The notes beneath the pieces were generated by a model. The model made no database searches and was not told the origin of the DNA. It saw nothing but the letters and a program-made list of their open reading frames with translations. The position numbers were made by a program, and so were the translations under genes. A DNA stretch of 54,104 nucleotides from Brevinematales bacterium. Its GTDB lineage: Bacteria; Spirochaetota; Brevinematia; Brevinematales; GWF1-51-8. Shown piece after piece: positions 2,591 through 45,110 of this stretch. The stretch is from the NCBI GenBank assembly GCA_013177895.1, contig JABLXV010000001.1, positions 86,056-140,159 of the forward strand. The letters run 5' to 3'. Position 1 is the first letter of the stretch. The number at the start of each line of letters is the position of its first letter.

Positions 2591-3115
2591 ATGATTAAGA
2601 AACTGAATATACCTATCCGGGACGAGGAGGAACTCCTCCAGCTCGAAGCGGGCGATATGGTGCGTCTGACCGGGACTCTGTACACAGCCCGCGACCAGGC
2701 GCATAGGAAGATTCTCGACGGTATCGAGCACGGTATCGAACCCCCGTTCGACCTGAAAAACAATCTCATCTACTACTGCGGCCCCACCCCCCCGCGCGAG
2801 GACGGATTATTCGGCTCGGCCGGCCCGACTACATCGTCGCGGATGGATAAAATGACTCCGCCTCTGATCGAGCGCGGTATCCGAGGGACTATCGGCAAGG
2901 GCGAACGTTCCCCCGAGGTGCTGGAAGCATGCCGGAAGTACCGCGCGGTCTACCTAGCGGCGTTCGGCGGCGCGGGCGCGGAACTCGCCAAACGCATCAA
3001 GAAGCAGGAACTGGTGGCGTACCCGGAGCTGGGTACCGAGGCGGTGTATAAGCTCGAGGTGGAGGATTTCCCGGTGATAGTCGCGGTGGACACGAAGGGG
3101 AAGAGTATATTATAG
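2591..3115 (+). CDS. Fe-S hydro-lyase (fumarase/tartrate dehydratase) beta subunit
   Basis: A 174-residue protein of the beta region found in class I fumarases and L-tartrate dehydratases. Supporting stretches are GDMVRLTGTLYTARDQAHRK near residues 20-39, IYYCGPTPP, GSAGPTTSSRMD, a GKG turn, AAFGGAGAELAKRI, and a C-terminal ELGTEAVYKLEVEDFP. The frame is open far upstream, but the start is set at the ATG at 2591 because of its ribosome-binding site, the promoter and the family start. Two-subunit enzymes pair it with an alpha subunit carrying the [4Fe-4S] cluster, and no alpha gene is adjacent. The last 45 bp or so, including the stop region, recur in diverged form at 4200-4244 beyond the next gene. 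Confidence 0.93.
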   Translation: MIKKLNIPIRDEEELLQLEAGDMVRLTGTLYTARDQAHRKILDGIEHGIEPPFDLKNNLIYYCGPTPPREDGLFGSAGPTTSSRMDKMTPPLIERGIRGTIGKGERSPEVLEACRKYRAVYLAAFGGAGAELAKRIKKQELVAYPELGTEAVYKLEVEDFPVIVAVDTKGKSIL

Positions 3116-3121
3116 GGAATA
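3077..3121 (+). repeat. Direct repeat, left copy: 3' end of the fumarase-beta gene
   Basis: This stretch covers the last codons and stop of the fumarase-beta gene plus a few bases. It matches 4200-4244 at 39 of 45 positions without gaps. The two copies bracket the beta-lactamase-like gene. Confidence 0.85.
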
Positions 3122-3168
3122 TACTTGTATCCATTTTCATATAGAACCTGAAATATTTCGGAGAATAT

Positions 3169-4197
3169 ATGCTACTCCATGAAATATTAGACAACCATAT
3201 TGCGCGTTTTAATACCGTCCCCGGCGCGGGAATATTTTATTTCGACTCCGAAGGATACTCGACCGCATTCGCCGGTAAAAAACATATCCGGCAGGTGGAA
3301 AAAATCACCTCCAATACCCTCTTCGAAGCTGCGTCATTAACAAAGCCCCTTTTTGCTTATATTGTCATACTCATGATCGATAAAGGCATTCTCAGCCTTG
3401 ACACGCCCATCGATTTTTATATCAAGAAATACAAAATCCCGATTCTCGATTATCAGGAGTTTTTATCCGATCCCGCTTTCCTGAAAATTACCCCTCGCGC
3501 CATTCTGATTCACAGTACAGGACTACCGAACTGGATGAATATCAAAGACTACAAAGAGCTTTTGTTCGATCCGGGGGATTATTTTCAGTATTCCGGCATG
3601 AGCTATGTTTTCCTGCAATGGCTGATCGAGCGTATCACCAGTCAAAGTATCCAAGAGCTTGCGATGAAATATGTTTTCCGTCCGCTTGTTCTGAAACAGA
3701 GCGGCTTCGAATGGAGGATGGAATGGGAAAACGATCTGGCTAACGGGCATAGTTCGGACGGAGAACCGTTGGAAAAACAGCGTAAGATACAGGGAGGAGC
3801 CGCCGCGGCGCTCCTGACAACAGTGCGAGACTACGGGTTTTTCTTCCGCGATTTTGTCGATAAAATCCGAAAAAAAGAAGATGTATTCGCGCAGGTCGAT
3901 ATTCCCCAGATCAGGCGTTTCAGGAATTCGGATTTTTACTCGCAACACAGTAGTATCGCGTGGGGGCTGGGAATTGGTATGGAACTGTACGATGATGAAT
4001 GGTGGATCTGGCAGGTCGGTGCAAATCCGAATTTCTTCAACTGGGCGCTCGCGAATCCGTCCACGGGTCAAGGCGCTGTAATCTTCACCAACTCCGAGCC
4101 GGGTAATCCTGTACCCGAAGCGGTCTTGAGCGCCCTTTTCGGCGACGGCCATCCCTGCTTCGAATTTGATAAAGTTTATCTCTCGCAGAATAGTTAG
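3169..4197 (+). CDS. Beta-lactamase class C-like serine hydrolase
   Basis: A 342-residue serine hydrolase of the class C beta-lactamase / penicillin-binding-protein-like family. SLTK at residues 56-59 is the SxxK nucleophile motif, HSTGLPNW lies near 115-122, and YSGMSY at 141-146 holds the second catalytic motif tyrosine (Gly where the usual Asn stands). A GAAAALLTTVRDYGFF segment follows. There is no signal peptide, so it is probably cytoplasmic, and resistance to beta-lactams should not be assumed. The ribosome-binding site CGGAGAA precedes ATG 3169. Base composition is somewhat lower in G+C than the core genes. It lies 53 bp after the fumarase-beta stop and is followed at once by a diverged copy of that gene's 3' end. 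Confidence 0.9.
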   Translation: MLLHEILDNHIARFNTVPGAGIFYFDSEGYSTAFAGKKHIRQVEKITSNTLFEAASLTKPLFAYIVILMIDKGILSLDTPIDFYIKKYKIPILDYQEFLSDPAFLKITPRAILIHSTGLPNWMNIKDYKELLFDPGDYFQYSGMSYVFLQWLIERITSQSIQELAMKYVFRPLVLKQSGFEWRMEWENDLANGHSSDGEPLEKQRKIQGGAAAALLTTVRDYGFFFRDFVDKIRKKEDVFAQVDIPQIRRFRNSDFYSQHSSIAWGLGIGMELYDDEWWIWQVGANPNFFNWALANPSTGQGAVIFTNSEPGNPVPEAVLSALFGDGHPCFEFDKVYLSQNS

Positions 4198-4199
4198 TC

Positions 4200-4244
4200 A
4201 TCGTCGCGGCGGACACGAAGAGGAAGAGTATACTGTGGGGAATA
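4200..4244 (+). repeat. Direct repeat, right copy: relic of the fumarase-beta 3' end
   Basis: Starts three bases after the hydrolase stop codon. Translated in the matching frame it gives VIVAADTKRKSIL against VIVAVDTKGKSIL in the intact gene. The stop codon TAG has become TGG, so it is a non-functional gene end. Confidence 0.85.
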
Positions 4245-4254
4245 ACCTTTATAG

Positions 4255-4602
4255 TTAAAGGTTTTTCTTTCGAACATTTTCCATCTGTACCTTTAATTCC
4301 GGCAGTATCTCTTTTACGGTTTTCCATATTATCTCATTATTAATACCGAAATACTCATGTATCATAATATTTCTCATCGCAGTCATTTTTTTCCAATGAA
4401 TTTCAGGGAATTCCCGCTTTATTTCTGTTGGGATATGTTTAGCAGCTTCGCCGATAATTTCAAAGAGACGGGTGACTGCAAGTTGGGTCTTTGAATCGTG
4501 ATTGAATTCTTCAAATTTCATTTCACTAGTAAAATCAATTGCGTTCTTTATAGCTTCTAAAATATCATTAATAAAATCTATCACTTCTCTGTCTTTCTTC
4601 AC
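4255..4602 (-). CDS. hepT: HepT-like toxin (DUF86, HEPN ribonuclease)
   Basis: A 115-residue HEPN protein of the DUF86/HepT family. The RX4HXY motif is present as R77, H82 and Y84 (RNIMIHEY). In characterised HepT/MntA pairs R and H form the RNase site and the tyrosine is the target of AMPylation by MntA. The segment LFEIIGEAAKHIP is also typical. The start overlaps the end of the preceding MntA gene by 4 bp, indicating translational coupling with antitoxin first. Visibly richer in A+T than the core genes. It is the downstream one of two tandem HepT/MntA modules lying after the ntrX-like gene. Confidence 0.9.
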   Translation of the reverse strand: MKKDREVIDFINDILEAIKNAIDFTSEMKFEEFNHDSKTQLAVTRLFEIIGEAAKHIPTEIKREFPEIHWKKMTAMRNIMIHEYFGINNEIIWKTVKEILPELKVQMENVRKKNL

Positions 4603-4892
4603 AGATACTTTACCTCACTTAAAATATGTTTCCCGATATTCGGTTTGAGCGAATCCTTAGTCACCAAATCCACCTTTGTTTTCAACAATTTCCCGATACT
4701 ATCCCGAAGGTCAAAAAATTCAAAAAGATTGGGGTTTTCGGTGAACGATACCAATATATCCAAGTCGCTTTTTTCAGTTTGTTCGCCGCGCACATACGAC
4801 CCAAACACTCCGATTTCCCTAATATGATATTTCTGTTCCAGTAAAAGTTTTTGTGCTTGTAGAACCTCTACAATTTCAGCAAGTGTCTTCAT
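4599..4892 (-). CDS. mntA: MntA-like minimal nucleotidyltransferase antitoxin
   Basis: A 97-residue minimal nucleotidyltransferase. GVFGSYVRGE (GS at residues 31-32) and SDLDILV (D43 and D45) form the metal- and nucleotide-binding GSX10DXD signature. MntA-type antitoxins add AMP to a tyrosine of the cognate HepT and silence it. The order antitoxin then toxin with a 4-bp overlap supports that pairing. Directly upstream of the ATG lies a copy of the ntrX-like 3' end (4894-4919), which also supplies the ribosome-binding site GAGGAG. A+T-rich compared with the surrounding core genes. Confidence 0.9.
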   Translation of the reverse strand: MKTLAEIVEVLQAQKLLLEQKYHIREIGVFGSYVRGEQTEKSDLDILVSFTENPNLFEFFDLRDSIGKLLKTKVDLVTKDSLKPNIGKHILSEVKYL

Positions 4893-4893
4893 T

Positions 4894-4919
4894 CCCTACT
4901 CCTCGAACTCCAATTCCTT
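4894..4919 (-). repeat. Direct repeat: relic of the ntrX-like gene 3' end
   Basis: Matches the true 3' end of the ntrX-like gene (5550-5575) at 24 of 26 positions on the same strand. It begins immediately after the stop codon of the upstream HepT gene and ends at the ribosome-binding region of the next MntA gene. The HepT/MntA module at 4920-5547 is therefore bracketed by two copies of the host gene's end. Confidence 0.85.
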
Positions 4920-5261
4920 CTATTTAGCTTCTTCCTCTATAATACTCTCAACCTGTATTTTCAATTGAGGTATTTTACGGTTTATCGCGTCCCAGATCAT
5001 TTCATAATCGATACCGAAATAATGATGGATCAGTTTATCGCGCATCCCGGCGAGTTTCTTCCATTCTACTTCAGGGTATTTTCCCTTTATATCGTCCGGG
5101 ATATTTTTCACCGCTTCCCCGATAATCTCCGGACTTCGGATAAACGCCCTGCATAGTATTTCATTTTTTATAAAACTATCATACCCCAGATTTACCGAAT
5201 TCCTTTCCAGCACTTCCGCTTCGGTAAGTATATGCCGTAAAAATATCTTATAGTCTTTCAT
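4920..5261 (-). CDS. hepT: HepT-like toxin (DUF86, HEPN ribonuclease), second copy
   Basis: A 113-residue DUF86/HepT protein with the RX4HXY motif as R74, H79 and Y81 (RDKLIHHY) and the IIGEAVKNIP segment. It resembles the HepT at 4255-4602 in layout but is clearly divergent, so the two modules are not a recent tandem duplication. It overlaps the end of its MntA gene by 14 bp. Its stop codon is followed without a gap by the repeated ntrX-like 3' end. Confidence 0.9.
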   Translation of the reverse strand: MKDYKIFLRHILTEAEVLERNSVNLGYDSFIKNEILCRAFIRSPEIIGEAVKNIPDDIKGKYPEVEWKKLAGMRDKLIHHYFGIDYEMIWDAINRKIPQLKIQVESIIEEEAK

Positions 5262-5547
5262 ACACCGCCTCTTTCTCGATACCCGGTTTCATTAACGGGT
5301 CTATCCCTTCGGGAGTCAGGACGTCTACCTTCATCTGTAAAATATCCTCAAGAAAGAAACAGAGTTCCATATAACTGTCGAAATTTTTCCTGCCTGACTC
5401 GAATTCGACAATGAAATCTACATCGCTGTCGGGACGCTGTTCGTTCCGGGCGAACGAACCGAATATGCCGATTTTTTTTACGCCGAATCTTTTTATCCGG
5501 TCTTTATTTGACTGAATGACCTGCAATAATTCGTTTGTATTTTTCAT
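5248..5547 (-). CDS. mntA: MntA-like minimal nucleotidyltransferase antitoxin, second copy
   Basis: A 99-residue minimal nucleotidyltransferase with GIFGSFARNE and SDVDFIVEF, the GSX10DXD signature. It starts 4 nt after the ntrX-like stop codon, and the AAGGAG inside the end of that gene is its ribosome-binding site. Expression is therefore probably tied to the sensor/regulator operon. Likely antitoxin for the overlapping HepT. Confidence 0.9.
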   Translation of the reverse strand: MKNTNELLQVIQSNKDRIKRFGVKKIGIFGSFARNEQRPDSDVDFIVEFESGRKNFDSYMELCFFLEDILQMKVDVLTPEGIDPLMKPGIEKEAVYERL

Positions 5548-5549
5548 CC

Positions 5550-5575
5550 CCCTACTCCTTGAACTCCAGTTCCTT
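5550..5575 (-). repeat. Direct repeat: functional 3' end of the ntrX-like gene
   Basis: Last codons, stop and following GGG of the ntrX-like gene. It matches 4894-4919 at 24 of 26 positions. Confidence 0.85.
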
Positions 5576-6916
5576 GTCGATCTCCAGCTCCTTGATCTTC
5601 TTATGCAGGTACGTCCGTTCGATCTCCAGCGACTCCGCCGCCTTCGTGATATTCATCCCGCACTTGATGAGCCGGTTGATGATCAGACCCTTCTCGAACT
5701 GGTGCTTGGCGTCCTTCAGCGTCTGATTCTCGTACTTGGTGTCGAGATTGGCCTCCTCGGGGAAACTGCACTTCAGCACATCCTCCGGCTCGATCACCGG
5801 CGAGGGAGTCAGCACGATCAGGCGCTGGATGAAGTTGCGGAGCTCGCGGACATTGCCGGGCCATGTCTTATTCATCAGCAGGTTGACCGCGGGCTTGGAG
5901 ATTTTCACCTCGCGCCCGTTCCTAGTGGCGAATTCGTCGATAAAGAAATCGATCAGCATCGGGATATCGTCCTTCCGCTCCCGCAGCGACGGGATTTGCA
6001 CGGGGATGACGTTCAGGCGGTAGTAGAGGTCCTGGCGGAACTTCCCGGCGCGGATCGCCTCGGTCAGGTCCTTGTTGGTCGCGGCGAGCACCACCACGTC
6101 CACCTTCACCACCTCGTTGCCGCCGACACGCTCGAGCTCGCGCTCCTGAAGCACGCGCAGCACCTTCGCCTGCGCGGAAAGGCTAAGGTCGCCCACCTCG
6201 TCGAGGAAGATCGTGCCCTTATGCGCCGATTCGAACTTTCCCTTCTTCTGCTTGTGCGCGCCGGTGAACGCCCCCTTCTCATGGCCGAACAGCTCCGATT
6301 CGATCAGGGTTTCCGGGATCGCGGCGCAGTTCACCCCGACGAACGCGTGGAACTTGCGGGCGCCCTGGGTATGTATCATCCGGGCGATCATTTCCTTACC
6401 CGTACCGTTCTCCCCGGTGATCAGTACCGACGCGTTACTCTGCGCGATATTTTCCAGTTTATCGAGGATAGCCTTGATGATAGGGCTTTCGCCGATAAAC
6501 TGCACGGGCTTCTCGAGCTTCGACCGCAGGTTGATATTCTCGGTCTGTAATTCCTTGATACGTACCGCGTTACGGACAGTGCTGATGAGACGCTCCATCG
6601 ATAGCGGTTTCTCGATAAAGTCGTATGCCCCGCGCTTCATAGCGTCCACGGCGAGCTTGATATTCCCGTGGCCGGAGATAATCACCACCGGCACGATCGG
6701 GAGATCGGAATGCATGAAATCGAGCAGGTCGAGGCCTCCCTTGAACGGGAGCATCACGTCGAGGATGACCGCGTCCATATCGGTGGTCAGTATTTTCTTC
6801 TCCGCGTCCAATCCGTCGGCGGCGGTGATAACGTCGTACCCCTCGTCGTCGAGAATATCGGATATGGTATCGCGAATTGCCGGTTCGTCGTCAACCACCA
6901 GTATTTTGTTCTTCAA
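5552..6916 (-). CDS. Sigma-54-dependent response regulator, NtrX/NtrC family
   Basis: 454 residues in three parts. A receiver domain (about 1-120) has acidic D9/D10 and phosphoacceptor D53. An AAA+ sigma-54 activator domain (about 140-385) has Walker A GENGTGKE, the sigma-54-contacting GAFTGA loop and a DEVGDLS Walker B-like segment. A Fis-type helix-turn-helix sits at the C-terminus. It activates RNA polymerase holding sigma-54, and targets are unknown. The start is TTG at 6916, with AGGAGG 8 nt upstream inside the end of the kinase gene. The nearby ATG at 6921-6923 is in the kinase frame. The 26-bp overlap with the kinase suggests coupled translation. Confidence 0.93.
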   Translation of the reverse strand: MKNKILVVDDEPAIRDTISDILDDEGYDVITAADGLDAEKKILTTDMDAVILDVMLPFKGGLDLLDFMHSDLPIVPVVIISGHGNIKLAVDAMKRGAYDFIEKPLSMERLISTVRNAVRIKELQTENINLRSKLEKPVQFIGESPIIKAILDKLENIAQSNASVLITGENGTGKEMIARMIHTQGARKFHAFVGVNCAAIPETLIESELFGHEKGAFTGAHKQKKGKFESAHKGTIFLDEVGDLSLSAQAKVLRVLQERELERVGGNEVVKVDVVVLAATNKDLTEAIRAGKFRQDLYYRLNVIPVQIPSLRERKDDIPMLIDFFIDEFATRNGREVKISKPAVNLLMNKTWPGNVRELRNFIQRLIVLTPSPVIEPEDVLKCSFPEEANLDTKYENQTLKDAKHQFEKGLIINRLIKCGMNITKAAESLEIERTYLHKKIKELEIDKELEFKE

Positions 6917-22826: not shown

Positions 22827-25652
22827 GTGAAATTATACGACCTGAGTATATCCGTAGAAATCCTGACCGATAAGCAGTTGACGCGCGAACTGAAAATAGT
22901 CCTTTCGTCCAGCGACTCCCTTTTACGGCGGTATATCCTGTCGACGGTGGAGAACGAGGATTTGTCGCTGGAGTTTTTCGACGATTTTTCGGACGTCCCG
23001 GCGGAAATCCAGAGCTTCATCCGTTATTTCAAAAACTACCGCCAATCGTTGATCTCCCGCCCCGACTCGAAAACCCTGCTGGTCGGGACTCCCGTCGATT
23101 TTTACTTTATCCATAACCTGATGAAATTCAATACCCAGTTTATTGTCAACGATAAAAAACGCCGCGTCCGTTTCGACGACGATCCGCTCACATTGCGCCT
23201 CCTTTTTAACTCCGAGTTGAACAGTCTCGTGCTGCCGTCCCCGGCGAACAATGTCCTGCTTCCGACCAACGGCGGCAATCTACTCATCAGCGACGGGGTA
23301 ATTCGCCCGTTGACGGCTCCGGTGAGCGACGAGATGCTCGAGACTTTGTTCCGCGAGGGAGCCGCGCCGGTATCCCCGGAGCTCAGGATCAAGCTCTTTA
23401 CCACCAAGCGCGACCGTTCCAAGCACATCGACCGGATGATCGACCTCCCGCAGGTGCGGACTGTCTCCGAGCGCAAAATCCGCTTCCGTTTCAACGCCGG
23501 GCACGACACATACTCTGTCGCGGGATACCTGCTCTGCGGCGACCATGAATGCCCGCTGAATTTCCCCGAGCTTCGCAAGGCAATCCTCCTGTCCGAGGAA
23601 ATTATCCTGCCGTTCGCCGAGAACGAAGTCGTGCTGATCTCCCCCGAATCGGAGTTCTATCAGCAGATACGGACGGTAGTGAACGAGGTTTATTCGAATT
23701 TCTTCGAGTTTTTAAACGAGATAGAGACCAATAAGATCGAAACCCGCGATAACGAGAACCTGTTCCAGAAGTTTTTCCCGAAGATCAGCGGTATCGCTGA
23801 AATTATCGAGGGCGACGAGAAAATAGAAATCGTCAGCGGCGAGGTTTCCGAGCGCCGTATAAAAATATCCGACGAGCAGATCGCCCCGTCCGGCGACGGG
23901 AGTTCCATCGACTGGCTCGGCGTGGACTTCCAATTCCGTATCGGCGACATCATGCTGATGCTCAACGAGCTTCACGAAATCCTGCGGCACGGTTTCGTGC
24001 GAAAGGGTAACAAGATCGTCAGCCTCGGCGAGAAGGAATTATCGTTCGTCAAGGATTTGCTGGGCGAGATCGATATCCGCAAGGTCGGCGGCAAATGGCG
24101 GATGCGCCGTTTCAACCTGCCGCGCCTCCTCAAGGAATCGATCAAAACCGAACTCCCCGCCGCGCTCAAGGATTTCCAGAAGGAGATCACCGCCGACCGT
24201 TCGATCAAGAAGGTCAAACTCCCCGACCGGATATCCCATATCCTGAGGAATTACCAGAAGCTCGGCGCGGACTGGCTCCATTTCCTCAACCGTTTCCATT
24301 TCGGCGGAATCCTAGCGGACGAGATGGGTCTCGGTAAAACAGTGCAGATGCTGACGCATCTTTACACGATCAAGGGCAGCGGCCCTACGGTGATCGTTTG
24401 CCCCAGTTCGCTCGTGTACAACTGGGTCGCGGAGATAAAAAAGTTCTTCCCGGAGGAACTGTCATGGATAGTGATCGACGGGAACAAGTCCCAGCGTATC
24501 GCGAAGATCGGGGAGATCGCGAACTACGATATCGCGATCACGTCCTATTACCTGATCCATCTCGATATCGAGGAATATAAAAAGATCGAGTTTAACTACT
24601 GCATCCTCGACGAGGCGCAGCATATCAAGAATAAGTCCGCGAAACGCACCCAGAGTATCAAGGATATCCTGTCGCGGCACAGGATCGCGATCACGGGTAC
24701 GCCTATCGAGAACAATGTCACCGAGCTCTGGTCGATCTTCGACTTCGTGATGCCGTCGTTCCTCGGGCATTACACATGGTTCAAAAAATCGTTCGAACTC
24801 CCCATCAACGGGTTCGACCGCAACGAGCGGACGATCGCGGTCAATAAGCTCAAAAAGATGATCCACCCGTTCATCATACGCCGCACCAAGTCGGCGGTCA
24901 TCAAGGAACTCCCCGATAAGATCGAGCAATCGGTCAGCCTGGAACTCACCGAGCGCCAGAAGGCGCTCTATCTCGAGACGCTCGCGAAGGTACGGAGCAA
25001 CCTCTACTCGGTGATCGAAAAGAAGGGCGTCGAGGGGTCGTATATCGACTTCCTCGCGGCGCTCACGCGTCTCCGCCAGATCTGTCTCCATCCCGGGCTG
25101 GTCAACCCCGAGCTGATCGACCTCGACAGCGAGGAAATCTCGGTCAAGACGAGCGCGCTGGTCGAACTCCTCGAAGAGGCGATGGACAGCGGGCACCGGG
25201 TGCTCGTGTTCAGCCAGTTCGTACAGATGCTGAAAATCCTGCGGAAGGAACTTTCCCGCAACCAGATCGACTACCTCTACCTCGACGGCGAGACGAAGGA
25301 CCGCGTGGAGCTGGTCGACCGTTTCAACAAGTCGGACGTGCCGGTATTCCTGATCTCCCTCCGCGCGGGAGGCACCGGGCTGAACCTGATCGGCGCGGAC
25401 GCGGTCATCCTGTTCGACCCGTGGTGGAATCCCGCCGTGGAGAACCAAGCGATCGACCGGGCGCACCGTATCGGGCAGGTCAACGTCGTGCACGTGTACC
25501 GTCTGATGACGCAGGGCACTATAGAAGAGAAGATCGCGCGCCTTCAGGATAAGAAGCGCGTCATATTCGACAATATGCTCGATAAGGACGCGACGTTCAT
25601 TAAGAAGATGACATGGGAAGATATCCGCGACCTGTTCGAGATGGAAACGTAA
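22827..25652 (+). CDS. SNF2/Rad54-family DEAD-like ATPase/helicase
   Basis: 941 residues. An N-terminal region of about 450 residues is of unknown fold. Then come the SNF2 ATPase lobes: Walker A DEMGLGKT at 498-505, DEAQ box at 595-598, the AITGTPIENN motif III region, and helicase-C motifs VFSQFVQMLKIL, SLRAGGTGLNL and AIDRAHRIGQ. Likely an ATP-driven double-stranded DNA translocase acting on protein-DNA complexes. Start GTG at 22827 with AAGGGG upstream. Composition is core-like, so it looks resident. The last 29 bases recur at 26699-26727 beyond an inserted FRG gene. Confidence 0.93.
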   Translation: MKLYDLSISVEILTDKQLTRELKIVLSSSDSLLRRYILSTVENEDLSLEFFDDFSDVPAEIQSFIRYFKNYRQSLISRPDSKTLLVGTPVDFYFIHNLMKFNTQFIVNDKKRRVRFDDDPLTLRLLFNSELNSLVLPSPANNVLLPTNGGNLLISDGVIRPLTAPVSDEMLETLFREGAAPVSPELRIKLFTTKRDRSKHIDRMIDLPQVRTVSERKIRFRFNAGHDTYSVAGYLLCGDHECPLNFPELRKAILLSEEIILPFAENEVVLISPESEFYQQIRTVVNEVYSNFFEFLNEIETNKIETRDNENLFQKFFPKISGIAEIIEGDEKIEIVSGEVSERRIKISDEQIAPSGDGSSIDWLGVDFQFRIGDIMLMLNELHEILRHGFVRKGNKIVSLGEKELSFVKDLLGEIDIRKVGGKWRMRRFNLPRLLKESIKTELPAALKDFQKEITADRSIKKVKLPDRISHILRNYQKLGADWLHFLNRFHFGGILADEMGLGKTVQMLTHLYTIKGSGPTVIVCPSSLVYNWVAEIKKFFPEELSWIVIDGNKSQRIAKIGEIANYDIAITSYYLIHLDIEEYKKIEFNYCILDEAQHIKNKSAKRTQSIKDILSRHRIAITGTPIENNVTELWSIFDFVMPSFLGHYTWFKKSFELPINGFDRNERTIAVNKLKKMIHPFIIRRTKSAVIKELPDKIEQSVSLELTERQKALYLETLAKVRSNLYSVIEKKGVEGSYIDFLAALTRLRQICLHPGLVNPELIDLDSEEISVKTSALVELLEEAMDSGHRVLVFSQFVQMLKILRKELSRNQIDYLYLDGETKDRVELVDRFNKSDVPVFLISLRAGGTGLNLIGADAVILFDPWWNPAVENQAIDRAHRIGQVNVVHVYRLMTQGTIEEKIARLQDKKRVIFDNMLDKDATFIKKMTWEDIRDLFEMET
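25624..25652 (+). repeat. Direct repeat: functional 3' end of the SNF2 gene
   Basis: Last codons and stop of the SNF2 gene. Identical to 26699-26727 at 28 of 29 positions. The two copies bracket the A+T-rich FRG-domain gene. Confidence 0.9.
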
Positions 25653-25737: not shown

Positions 25738-26661
25738 ATGAATAAAATTGAAAATATCGATAGTTATTTAGTAGAACAGTTTTCAAACGTTTTACATTCG
25801 GGATATGAAGCAGTTGCAAGAAATGATGGAACTATTGTTAATAATTATCAAAAATTACTTGAAAATAATGCAATGATAAATTATGCTTATCCAAAATATA
25901 TGCTTTTTTATAGAGGACAAACATATGATATAAAAAACAATTCAGGACACTCTGTTTTTTATCCAACTCTATATAGAGTTGCGTCGGGTATGAATCAAAT
26001 TTCTAAAGACACAAAAATGAAAAGAATAAATATATTGAAAACATCATCAAATAAACTCATAGATTATCTATATCAAAGGAAAATAATAAATAATAATAGT
26101 CATCTTTTTATAGGAATTGAAAAATTAAAGTTATTTAAAGAACTTCAGTATGCTATTTTGCAACATTATGAGGTATGTAGAACACCTCTTTTAGATGTTA
26201 CACAATCTCTAAGAATGGCATGCAATTTTGCATTACATAACAGAGAAGGTAATCTACAAAATATCGGTTATGTTTTCGTATTTGGAATGCCTTATCCTCA
26301 TGGAGGAATAAGTTACTCAACAGAAGACGAATTCTTAAATATTCGTCTTTCTGCTGTATGCATGCCTAAAGCATTGCGTCCACATTTTCAAGAAGCATAT
26401 TTATTAGGAGAATTTCCGCTAAAAACTGAATTAGACTTAAATAGAATTAACAATGTGGAAGATATTTTTAGATCAAAACCTAATTTTGCATGTCGTTTAG
26501 TGGCAAAATTTAAAATAAATGGTACCATCCATGAAGAAATTGGAGATTTAGGCAATAAATACATTTATCCTGATGAAAATGATGAAATAAACTTAGTATG
26601 CGAAAATATAAAAAAAGATTTAATAGAAACATATGGGACTAATTACTATTCAAATATTTAA
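25738..26661 (+). CDS. FRG-domain protein
   Basis: 307 residues. The FRG domain is recognised by LFYRGQTYDI near residues 58-67, a PTLYRVASG strand, and QHYEVCRTPLLDVTQSLRMA near 143-162, followed by the FALHN segment. FRG-domain proteins are often in mobile or defence contexts, but the biochemical activity is not established. Strikingly A+T-rich in both sequence and codon choice compared with the flanking genes, which argues for recent transfer. Bracketed by two copies of the SNF2 gene's 3' end, with its own promoter and ribosome-binding site. Confidence 0.85.
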   Translation: MNKIENIDSYLVEQFSNVLHSGYEAVARNDGTIVNNYQKLLENNAMINYAYPKYMLFYRGQTYDIKNNSGHSVFYPTLYRVASGMNQISKDTKMKRINILKTSSNKLIDYLYQRKIINNNSHLFIGIEKLKLFKELQYAILQHYEVCRTPLLDVTQSLRMACNFALHNREGNLQNIGYVFVFGMPYPHGGISYSTEDEFLNIRLSAVCMPKALRPHFQEAYLLGEFPLKTELDLNRINNVEDIFRSKPNFACRLVAKFKINGTIHEEIGDLGNKYIYPDENDEINLVCENIKKDLIETYGTNYYSNI

Positions 26662-26698: not shown

Positions 26699-26727
26699 TC
26701 CGCGACCTGTTCGAGATGGAGACGTAA
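26699..26727 (+). repeat. Direct repeat: copy of the SNF2 3' end after the FRG gene
   Basis: Matches 25624-25652 with one substitution and keeps the stop codon, but has no open frame leading into it. It is followed by a short TAACAG/CTGTTA hairpin and then core-like DNA up to the oxidoreductase gene. Confidence 0.9.
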
Positions 26728-44196: not shown

Positions 44197-44203
44197 CATA
44201 GAC

Positions 44204-44227
44204 AGCCCCGCCAAGCGGGGCTTTTTT
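44204..44227 (+). terminator. Rho-independent terminator of metK
   Basis: AGCCCCGC, CAA loop, GCGGGGC, then TTTTTT. Confidence 0.9.
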
Positions 44228-44261
44228 ATTGTATTGACTATTTCCGCGGGGGATAAGTATA

Positions 44262-45110
44262 ATGCGAACCGAACGGGAAATGTTGGATATTATAACCGAT
44301 ACCGCCCGCGAGGACGAAAGGATACATGCCGTAATCCTTTGCGGTTCCAGGGCTGATAAAAACGCCCTGCATGACAAGTATTCCGATTTCGATATCGTGT
44401 ATATCGTCCGTTATATCCAGTCTTTCACGGAATCCGACGCATGGCTTGACCGTTTCGGGGAACGCCTGATTATGCAGAAACCGGCTGATTTCTATAACCG
44501 TCCCTATGACTATAACGGCAATCAGAATTTTATCTATCTCATGCAGTTTACCGATGGAAACAGAATCGACCTGACGCTTTCGGATATATCGAACATACAG
44601 ACATGGATAGAAAATAGAGAGCCGCAGACGGTATTGCTGGACAAGGATGAAATAATGGGATTGCATGATAGAGATACGGTTGACTTTTTTAACATAAGAA
44701 AGCCGCCCGCAGAGGAATTCAGGGATTGCTGTAATGAATTCTGGTGGCTCTGTCCAAGCGTTGTCAAAGGGCTATACCGGAAAGAATTGGTATACCTGAA
44801 ATTTATTATGGAACGTTATCAACTGGGTATGCTATTAAAGATGCTCGAATGGAAGGCCGGGATTGATAACGATTTTTCCGTTTCCGCGGGGAAGTTCGAC
44901 CGGTATCTGACAAAACTCCTGAATACCAGCGACCGCGATAGATTAACACTTGTTTTCCCTAACGGTGAATTTGACGACATCAAAGAAAAATTTATCCAAC
45001 TATGTCATTTCTTTCATGACTCCGCGATAACCGTATCGGAATACTTCCATTTTGATTATAAAATAAAGGAAGCGGAAAACGTCATGGAATATATCAGGGC
45101 GTCGCTATAA
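44262..45110 (+). CDS. Aminoglycoside 6-adenylyltransferase-like (ANT(6)/AadE family) protein
   Basis: 282 residues. MRTEREMLDIITDTAREDER at the start, then AVILCGSRADKNALHDKYSD followed by FDIVYIV, give the nucleotidyltransferase GS...DFD signature. FTDGNRIDLTLSDI and the C-terminal helical domain (YRKELVYLKFIMERYQLGML) match the AadE family. Members adenylylate streptomycin, but many chromosomal homologues have no shown resistance function. It sits after the metK terminator with GGGGG upstream of its ATG. Composition is slightly lower in G+C than metK. Confidence 0.88.
   Translation: MRTEREMLDIITDTAREDERIHAVILCGSRADKNALHDKYSDFDIVYIVRYIQSFTESDAWLDRFGERLIMQKPADFYNRPYDYNGNQNFIYLMQFTDGNRIDLTLSDISNIQTWIENREPQTVLLDKDEIMGLHDRDTVDFFNIRKPPAEEFRDCCNEFWWLCPSVVKGLYRKELVYLKFIMERYQLGMLLKMLEWKAGIDNDFSVSAGKFDRYLTKLLNTSDRDRLTLVFPNGEFDDIKEKFIQLCHFFHDSAITVSEYFHFDYKIKEAENVMEYIRASL

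Follow-up and report, generated by a model that had tools for sequence, protein, structure and literature searches.

How did a serine hydrolase gene come to lie between an intact and a decayed copy of the end of a fumarase gene? The question arises in a window of 54,104 nucleotides, the whole stretch analysed here, from the genome of a Brevinematales bacterium (assembly GCA_013177895.1, contig JABLXV010000001.1, positions 86,056 to 140,159). Here fumB, encoding the beta subunit of a fumarase or class I hydro-lyase (2591–3115, forward strand; Pfam PF05683, C-terminal domain, 1.5e-57), is followed on the same strand by the gene of a 342-aa serine hydrolase with a beta-lactamase fold (3169–4197), which was identified by Pfam (PF00144, 1.6e-32; 113 bits against a cutoff of 27) and carries the SxxK motif as SLTK. 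The fumB stop codon is a TAG ending at 3115 and that of the hydrolase a TAG ending at 4197. Hereafter, R denotes the functional end of a host gene and R' the second copy, found beyond the cargo. A direct-repeat search placed R of fumB at 3074–3126 and R' at 4197–4249, both on the forward strand, with 44 of 53 nt identical (83%) at a spacing of 1123.

The similarity on which the original prediction rested, 39 of 45 positions between 3077–3121 and 4200–4244, was reproduced, and it far exceeded anything obtained by shuffling (local score of the repeat 27, against a maximum of 16 and a mean of 9.2 in 500 Markov shuffles of the 4.9 kb downstream). The second copy stays coding up to the stop (GTC ATC GTC GCG GCG GAC ACG AAG AGG AAG AGT ATA CTG TGG), and its last codon indeed reads TGG for tryptophan and not TAG. 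The study genome (G000) was then set beside three congeners, Brevinematales bacterium DeMMO6_14 (G001), Spirochaetes bacterium GWF1_49_6 (G002) and GWF1_51_8 (G003), giving a genus sample of four genomes, all MAGs or drafts. It had been reasoned that the match would be a coincidence if all relatives kept the same gene order with no second gene end. G002 keeps the fumB-hydrolase order together with a second gene end, in which the stop is intact (CTG TAA). Chance similarity or tandem paralogy is therefore an extremely improbable account, considering that the pattern recurs in G002, that the scores lie far above those of the shuffles and that the sequences flanking R and R' are unrelated to each other. 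It was refuted for fumB and for the two further loci of the window described below, ntrC and SNF2. Paralogy does explain some matches of our wider survey (C13, C16, C17 and C26), which were set aside.

Insertion of the hydrolase between the two gene ends, either long ago or from another lineage, is supported as proposed, except that the case is not singular. Both copies were compared with the fumB genes of relatives, where greater closeness of the right copy to another species would have pointed to a foreign gene end brought in by the cassette. The right copy agrees with its own fumB end at 37 of 42 positions, with those of G001 and G002 at 30 of 34 each and with that of G003 at 27 of 31, and so it is not clearly nearer another species. 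Its GTC-ATC codons are those of the outgroup G003, a pattern that an old duplicate and a foreign one would explain equally well; that the cassette carried in the second fumB end from another lineage is possible. The cargo itself has a lateral history. The G002 hydrolase ortholog shares 72% of its amino acids, and fourfold-degenerate sites between G000 and G002 differ at 58 of 97 positions in the hydrolase (60%), compared with 16 of 71 in fumB (23%) and 14 of 85 in queH (16%). Given that silent divergence in the hydrolase far exceeds that of its flanks, the cassette did not simply descend with them, which indicates lateral movement. Fourfold divergence was mixed in the HepT and MNT genes, where the counts are small, and a plasmid search with the hydrolase returned distant relatives only, at about 31% identity.

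Beyond fumB, the same pattern is present two more times in the window. The first is at ntrC, a gene for a sigma-54 response regulator identified by Pfam (5552–6916, reverse strand), which is convergent to fumB. Reading from the functional ntrC end (R, 5550–5575, found by the direct-repeat search), the reverse strand carries an MNT antitoxin (MNT2, 5248–5547) and a HepT-like toxin (HepT2, 4920–5261), both assigned by Pfam, then R' (4894–4919; 24 of 26 nt identical to 5550–5575), so that the copied ntrC end sits beyond a HepT/MNT pair. Directly after this R' comes another pair, MNT1 (4599–4892; NTP_transf_2) and HepT1 (4255–4602; PF01934). In G001, ntrC has three gene ends, which separate MNT1-HepT1, MNT2-HepT2 and a 428-aa gene, and the order of the two HepT/MNT pairs (4255–5547 in the window) is swapped between G000 and G001.

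The second is at the gene of an SNF2-family helicase (22827–25652, forward strand), which has orthologs in all congeners. A repeat scan of contig 1 placed its R at 25624–25652, finishing exactly at the TAA, and its R' at 26699–26727, which matches its own R at 28 of 29 positions and the R of G001 at 29 of 29. In G000, the sole gene bracketed by this pair is an AT-rich gene for an FRG-domain protein (25738–26661, forward strand; PF08867), the only congener homologue of which lies behind fumB of G003 (40%). The other genomes carry different sequence behind SNF2: a short remnant with an R'-like sequence in G001, and in G002 a reverse-strand cargo followed by R' and then by the promoter region that in G000 adjoins the functional stop. 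The G002 R' encodes MFIRRMSWDDIRDLFEMEK against TFIKKMTWEDIRDLFEMEK, with a three-base change of a lysine to an arginine codon followed by 33 identical nt, and it looks like a diverged allele.

The recurrence was surveyed in 2.60 Mb of DNA, comprising 1.71 Mb of the 3.60-Mb G000 genome and 0.46, 0.41 and 0.02 Mb of the three congeners. Open reading frames were defined by length, without a gene finder, and a copy was counted if it was isolated and lay 0.25–3.5 kb downstream of a gene end, after filtering out paralogs and multi-copy sequences; genuine and paralogous matches were sorted partly by eye. Isolated end copies were found for 16 of 2312 gene ends, and about ten of the 16 span or abut the stop codon. 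Control positions in the same survey gave one match in mid-gene and three at 200 nt before the end, and gene-start positions gave 11, which include ends of the upstream gene and promoter copies. Among 77 unrelated loci, there were 4 matches for 654 gene ends, none of which was a coding gene end on inspection. The single match among 276 ends in 300 kb of E. coli lay in the ybfL pseudogene beside the ybfD transposase gene, which are H-repeat relatives. One further survey match, C10, was set aside as an array with a 66-nt period. This array (G000, 5698–6652) is an exact repeat of 32–33 nt with a period of about 66 nt that starts within a gene end, and it may be CRISPR-like or a minisatellite.

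The copies are 24–66 nt long and lie 0.6–1.7 kb downstream of the host gene end, and between each R and its R' lie one to four small cargo genes, in an insert of 0.5–1.7 kb. The cargo consists mostly of toxin-antitoxin pairs (HepT/MNT, PIN, HicBA), in addition to FRG-domain and hydrolase genes. The host gene names gyrB-like, V-ATPase D, radA, radical-SAM and SNF2 rest on sequence resemblance rather than on Pfam. At the gene for V-ATPase subunit D (34 of 37 nt identical), the cargo is a 91-aa ORF, a 156-aa ORF that appears PIN-like from its sequence, without Pfam confirmation, and HicB and HicA. The radA pair (28/29) encloses small ORFs and repeats, and the radical-SAM pair (30/30) a PIN gene of 134 aa and a 73-aa ORF. 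Similar arrangements were found in G001 at a gyrB-like gene (44/44; HEPN and MNT) and in G003 at an outer-membrane-like gene (63/63; a 247-aa ORF) and a 163-aa gene (28/29; a small ORF and PIN).

Two features of the edges stand out. In almost all cases the identity of R and R' ends at −4 to +6 of the stop codon, and the two copies do not always have the same stop codon (TAA/TAG), which looks as though the insert contributed the final one or more bases. Moreover, three repeats of 37–40 nt duplicate promoter-like sequence ahead of native genes and bracket cargo, as a mirror image of the gene-end copies (C6 in G000, 44203–44239 and 44869–44905; C32 in G003, 5517 and 6674; C36 in G001, 10663 and 11236); one of them brackets a YafQ/ParE-type toxin pair. 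A longer repeat in G000 (C8, 66236–66306 and 67748–67818) spans 71 nt of promoter, ribosome site and start codon, repeated at 67 of 71 positions 1.5 kb away.

Congeners differ in what they carry at the same sites. Behind fumB, G000 and G002 both have the hydrolase followed by a second gene end, G001 has a 428-aa reverse gene and G003 an FRG gene, so that some insert is found in every congener. An empty site was seen instead at radA, which in G001 runs directly into the sequence found after R' in G000. At the radical-SAM gene, R' overlaps with the stop codon of the convergent neighbour, which is native context; at both genes the sequence after R' is thus the native continuation. The radical-SAM cassette is common to G000, G001 and G003, and in G003 it lacks R'. 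In both G000 and G001, the final 30 nt of this R' agree with the genome's own R, while the part upstream has diverged, a pattern suggestive of conversion between R and R'. It counts against the target-duplication reading set out below, in that later gene conversion or renewed exchange would be needed. New cassettes appear to enter beside the host gene and to displace older ones, with the old gene end as the boundary.

Taken together, these data are probably best explained if foreign cargo was inserted repeatedly, each time with a long target duplication, the hydrolase being one of many such inserts behind housekeeping genes. The near-exact repeats of the fresh cases (63/63, 44/44 and 30/30) and the empty radA site would fit such a duplication. 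After each event, the gene would keep a complete end (R), followed by the cargo and then by R' (24–66 nt) before the old downstream sequence, and repeated events at one gene would stack cassettes, with the newest adjoining the gene and an R' between units. The cargo probably comes on DNA of related cells. One crossover would fall within the gene end or close by, and the far side of the cargo would be attached a little before the old stop codon, either illegitimately or through very short homology. We infer this joining step, as the inserts showed no shared recombinase, terminal motif or cargo terminus. Longer repeats may have been lost again through homologous deletion. Given that R' provides homology on the right-hand side, the block of gene, cargo and R' could also spread among relatives by ordinary homologous recombination. 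A ComEC gene was found in all three genus genomes checked and also in the E. coli control; ComEC occurs also in bacteria that are not known as naturally competent.

The diverged R' of the G002 SNF2 gene, set against the near-exact pairs, bears on a different origin, which we consider unlikely but still a serious contender. Here, homology-facilitated illegitimate recombination with diverged DNA would join R and the cargo, as the donor's gene end and downstream gene, to R' as the leftover end of the recipient's gene, with no duplication and with R and R' being different alleles from the start. Such a fusion of donor and recipient fits the conservatively substituted G002 R' and the abrupt boundary at the stop, where identity would end because intergenic DNA differs between lineages. 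The early differences in fumB and many other differences between R and R' are likewise synonymous (a partly manual tally), and for the stacked immunity genes of type VI secretion systems (T6SS) this route was put forward by Kirchberger et al. (2017, PMC5361080). The near-exact pairs, however, would demand donors of the same species, and at the gyrB-like gene only the final four bases differ, which looks as though a new stop came with the insert. Identity profiles of the host genes, in which we looked for a strong 3'-end introgression signal, did not reveal one and were nearly flat; the SNF2 profile of one pair rises just mildly across the 300 nt at the 3' end. Once stop changes that the insert possibly supplied are subtracted, the synonymous bias of the hand tally does not separate this reading from target duplication, and the two may be one process with distant and near donors, respectively.

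Target duplication at random does not explain why the identity of R and R' stops at the stop codon. Of all the features, this sharp boundary is the one least accounted for: to preserve the gene, selection requires a boundary no earlier than the stop, but not one lying this close. A fixed-length duplication of the transposase type is ruled out by the range of R (24–66 nt). An edge fixed at the stop codon would suit a dedicated mobile system, integron-like or based on a trans-acting site-specific recombinase, that places circular cargo at gene ends with R as the attachment site, as would the stacking of units with the youngest close to the gene and the swap in their order between species. We regard this as very unlikely, considering that the R sequences have no common motif by eye and vary in length from 24 to 66 nt, that no recombinase was present among the inserts whose reading frames were read, and that promoters show duplications of the same kind. 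Integrases are known that use the 3' ends of genes as targets and restore them, as at the E. coli icd, guaA and prfC sites, and their elements carry their own integrase. The duplicated gene end beside an intact gene is shared with such elements, whereas no integrase was seen in these inserts of 0.5–1.7 kb. Insertion might be tied mechanistically to stop codons and promoters, for instance at the edges of R-loops where ribosomes leave nascent RNA uncovered, a link that we hold to be doubtful. If true, small toxin-antitoxin cassettes would enter without a transposase, leaving the host gene intact and a copy of 24–66 nt behind.

The principle of insertion with long target duplication is already known, from Nobusato et al. 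(2000, Gene 259:99), as described in PMC1643837 and PMC3031569. According to these descriptions, restriction-modification genes of Helicobacter lie between long, variable direct target repeats, without an evident transposase. The two systems share genes of selfish type, long and variable target repeats, the lack of an evident transposase and their discovery by genome comparison. They differ in that the cargo in Brevinematales is mostly toxin-antitoxin, FRG and hydrolase genes, and in that the repeats here measure 24–66 nt, have one edge at a stop codon or promoter and occur at many housekeeping genes of one genus. T6SS immunity genes form sequential displacement arrays, proposed to arise by homology-facilitated illegitimate recombination (PMC5361080), and there too new cargo beside a conserved gene pushes older cargo and gene-end remnants downstream into ordered arrays. 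In those arrays the effector gene itself is displaced, while in Brevinematales the adjoining core gene is unrelated and remains whole, and just 24–66 nt of its end are left behind.

The fumarase-hydrolase arrangement is thus one of about ten such cases and records the acquisition and stacking of such genes. These cases bear on how toxin-antitoxin and defence modules of one or two genes move without a transposase or an integrase. One little-studied spirochaete genus preserves the scars of about ten entries, from near-exact to decayed, with relatives in which sites are empty, singly occupied or stacked. Since the gene-end copy shows the limits of each acquisition and its place in the order of events, the insertion step becomes approachable by comparison of strains.
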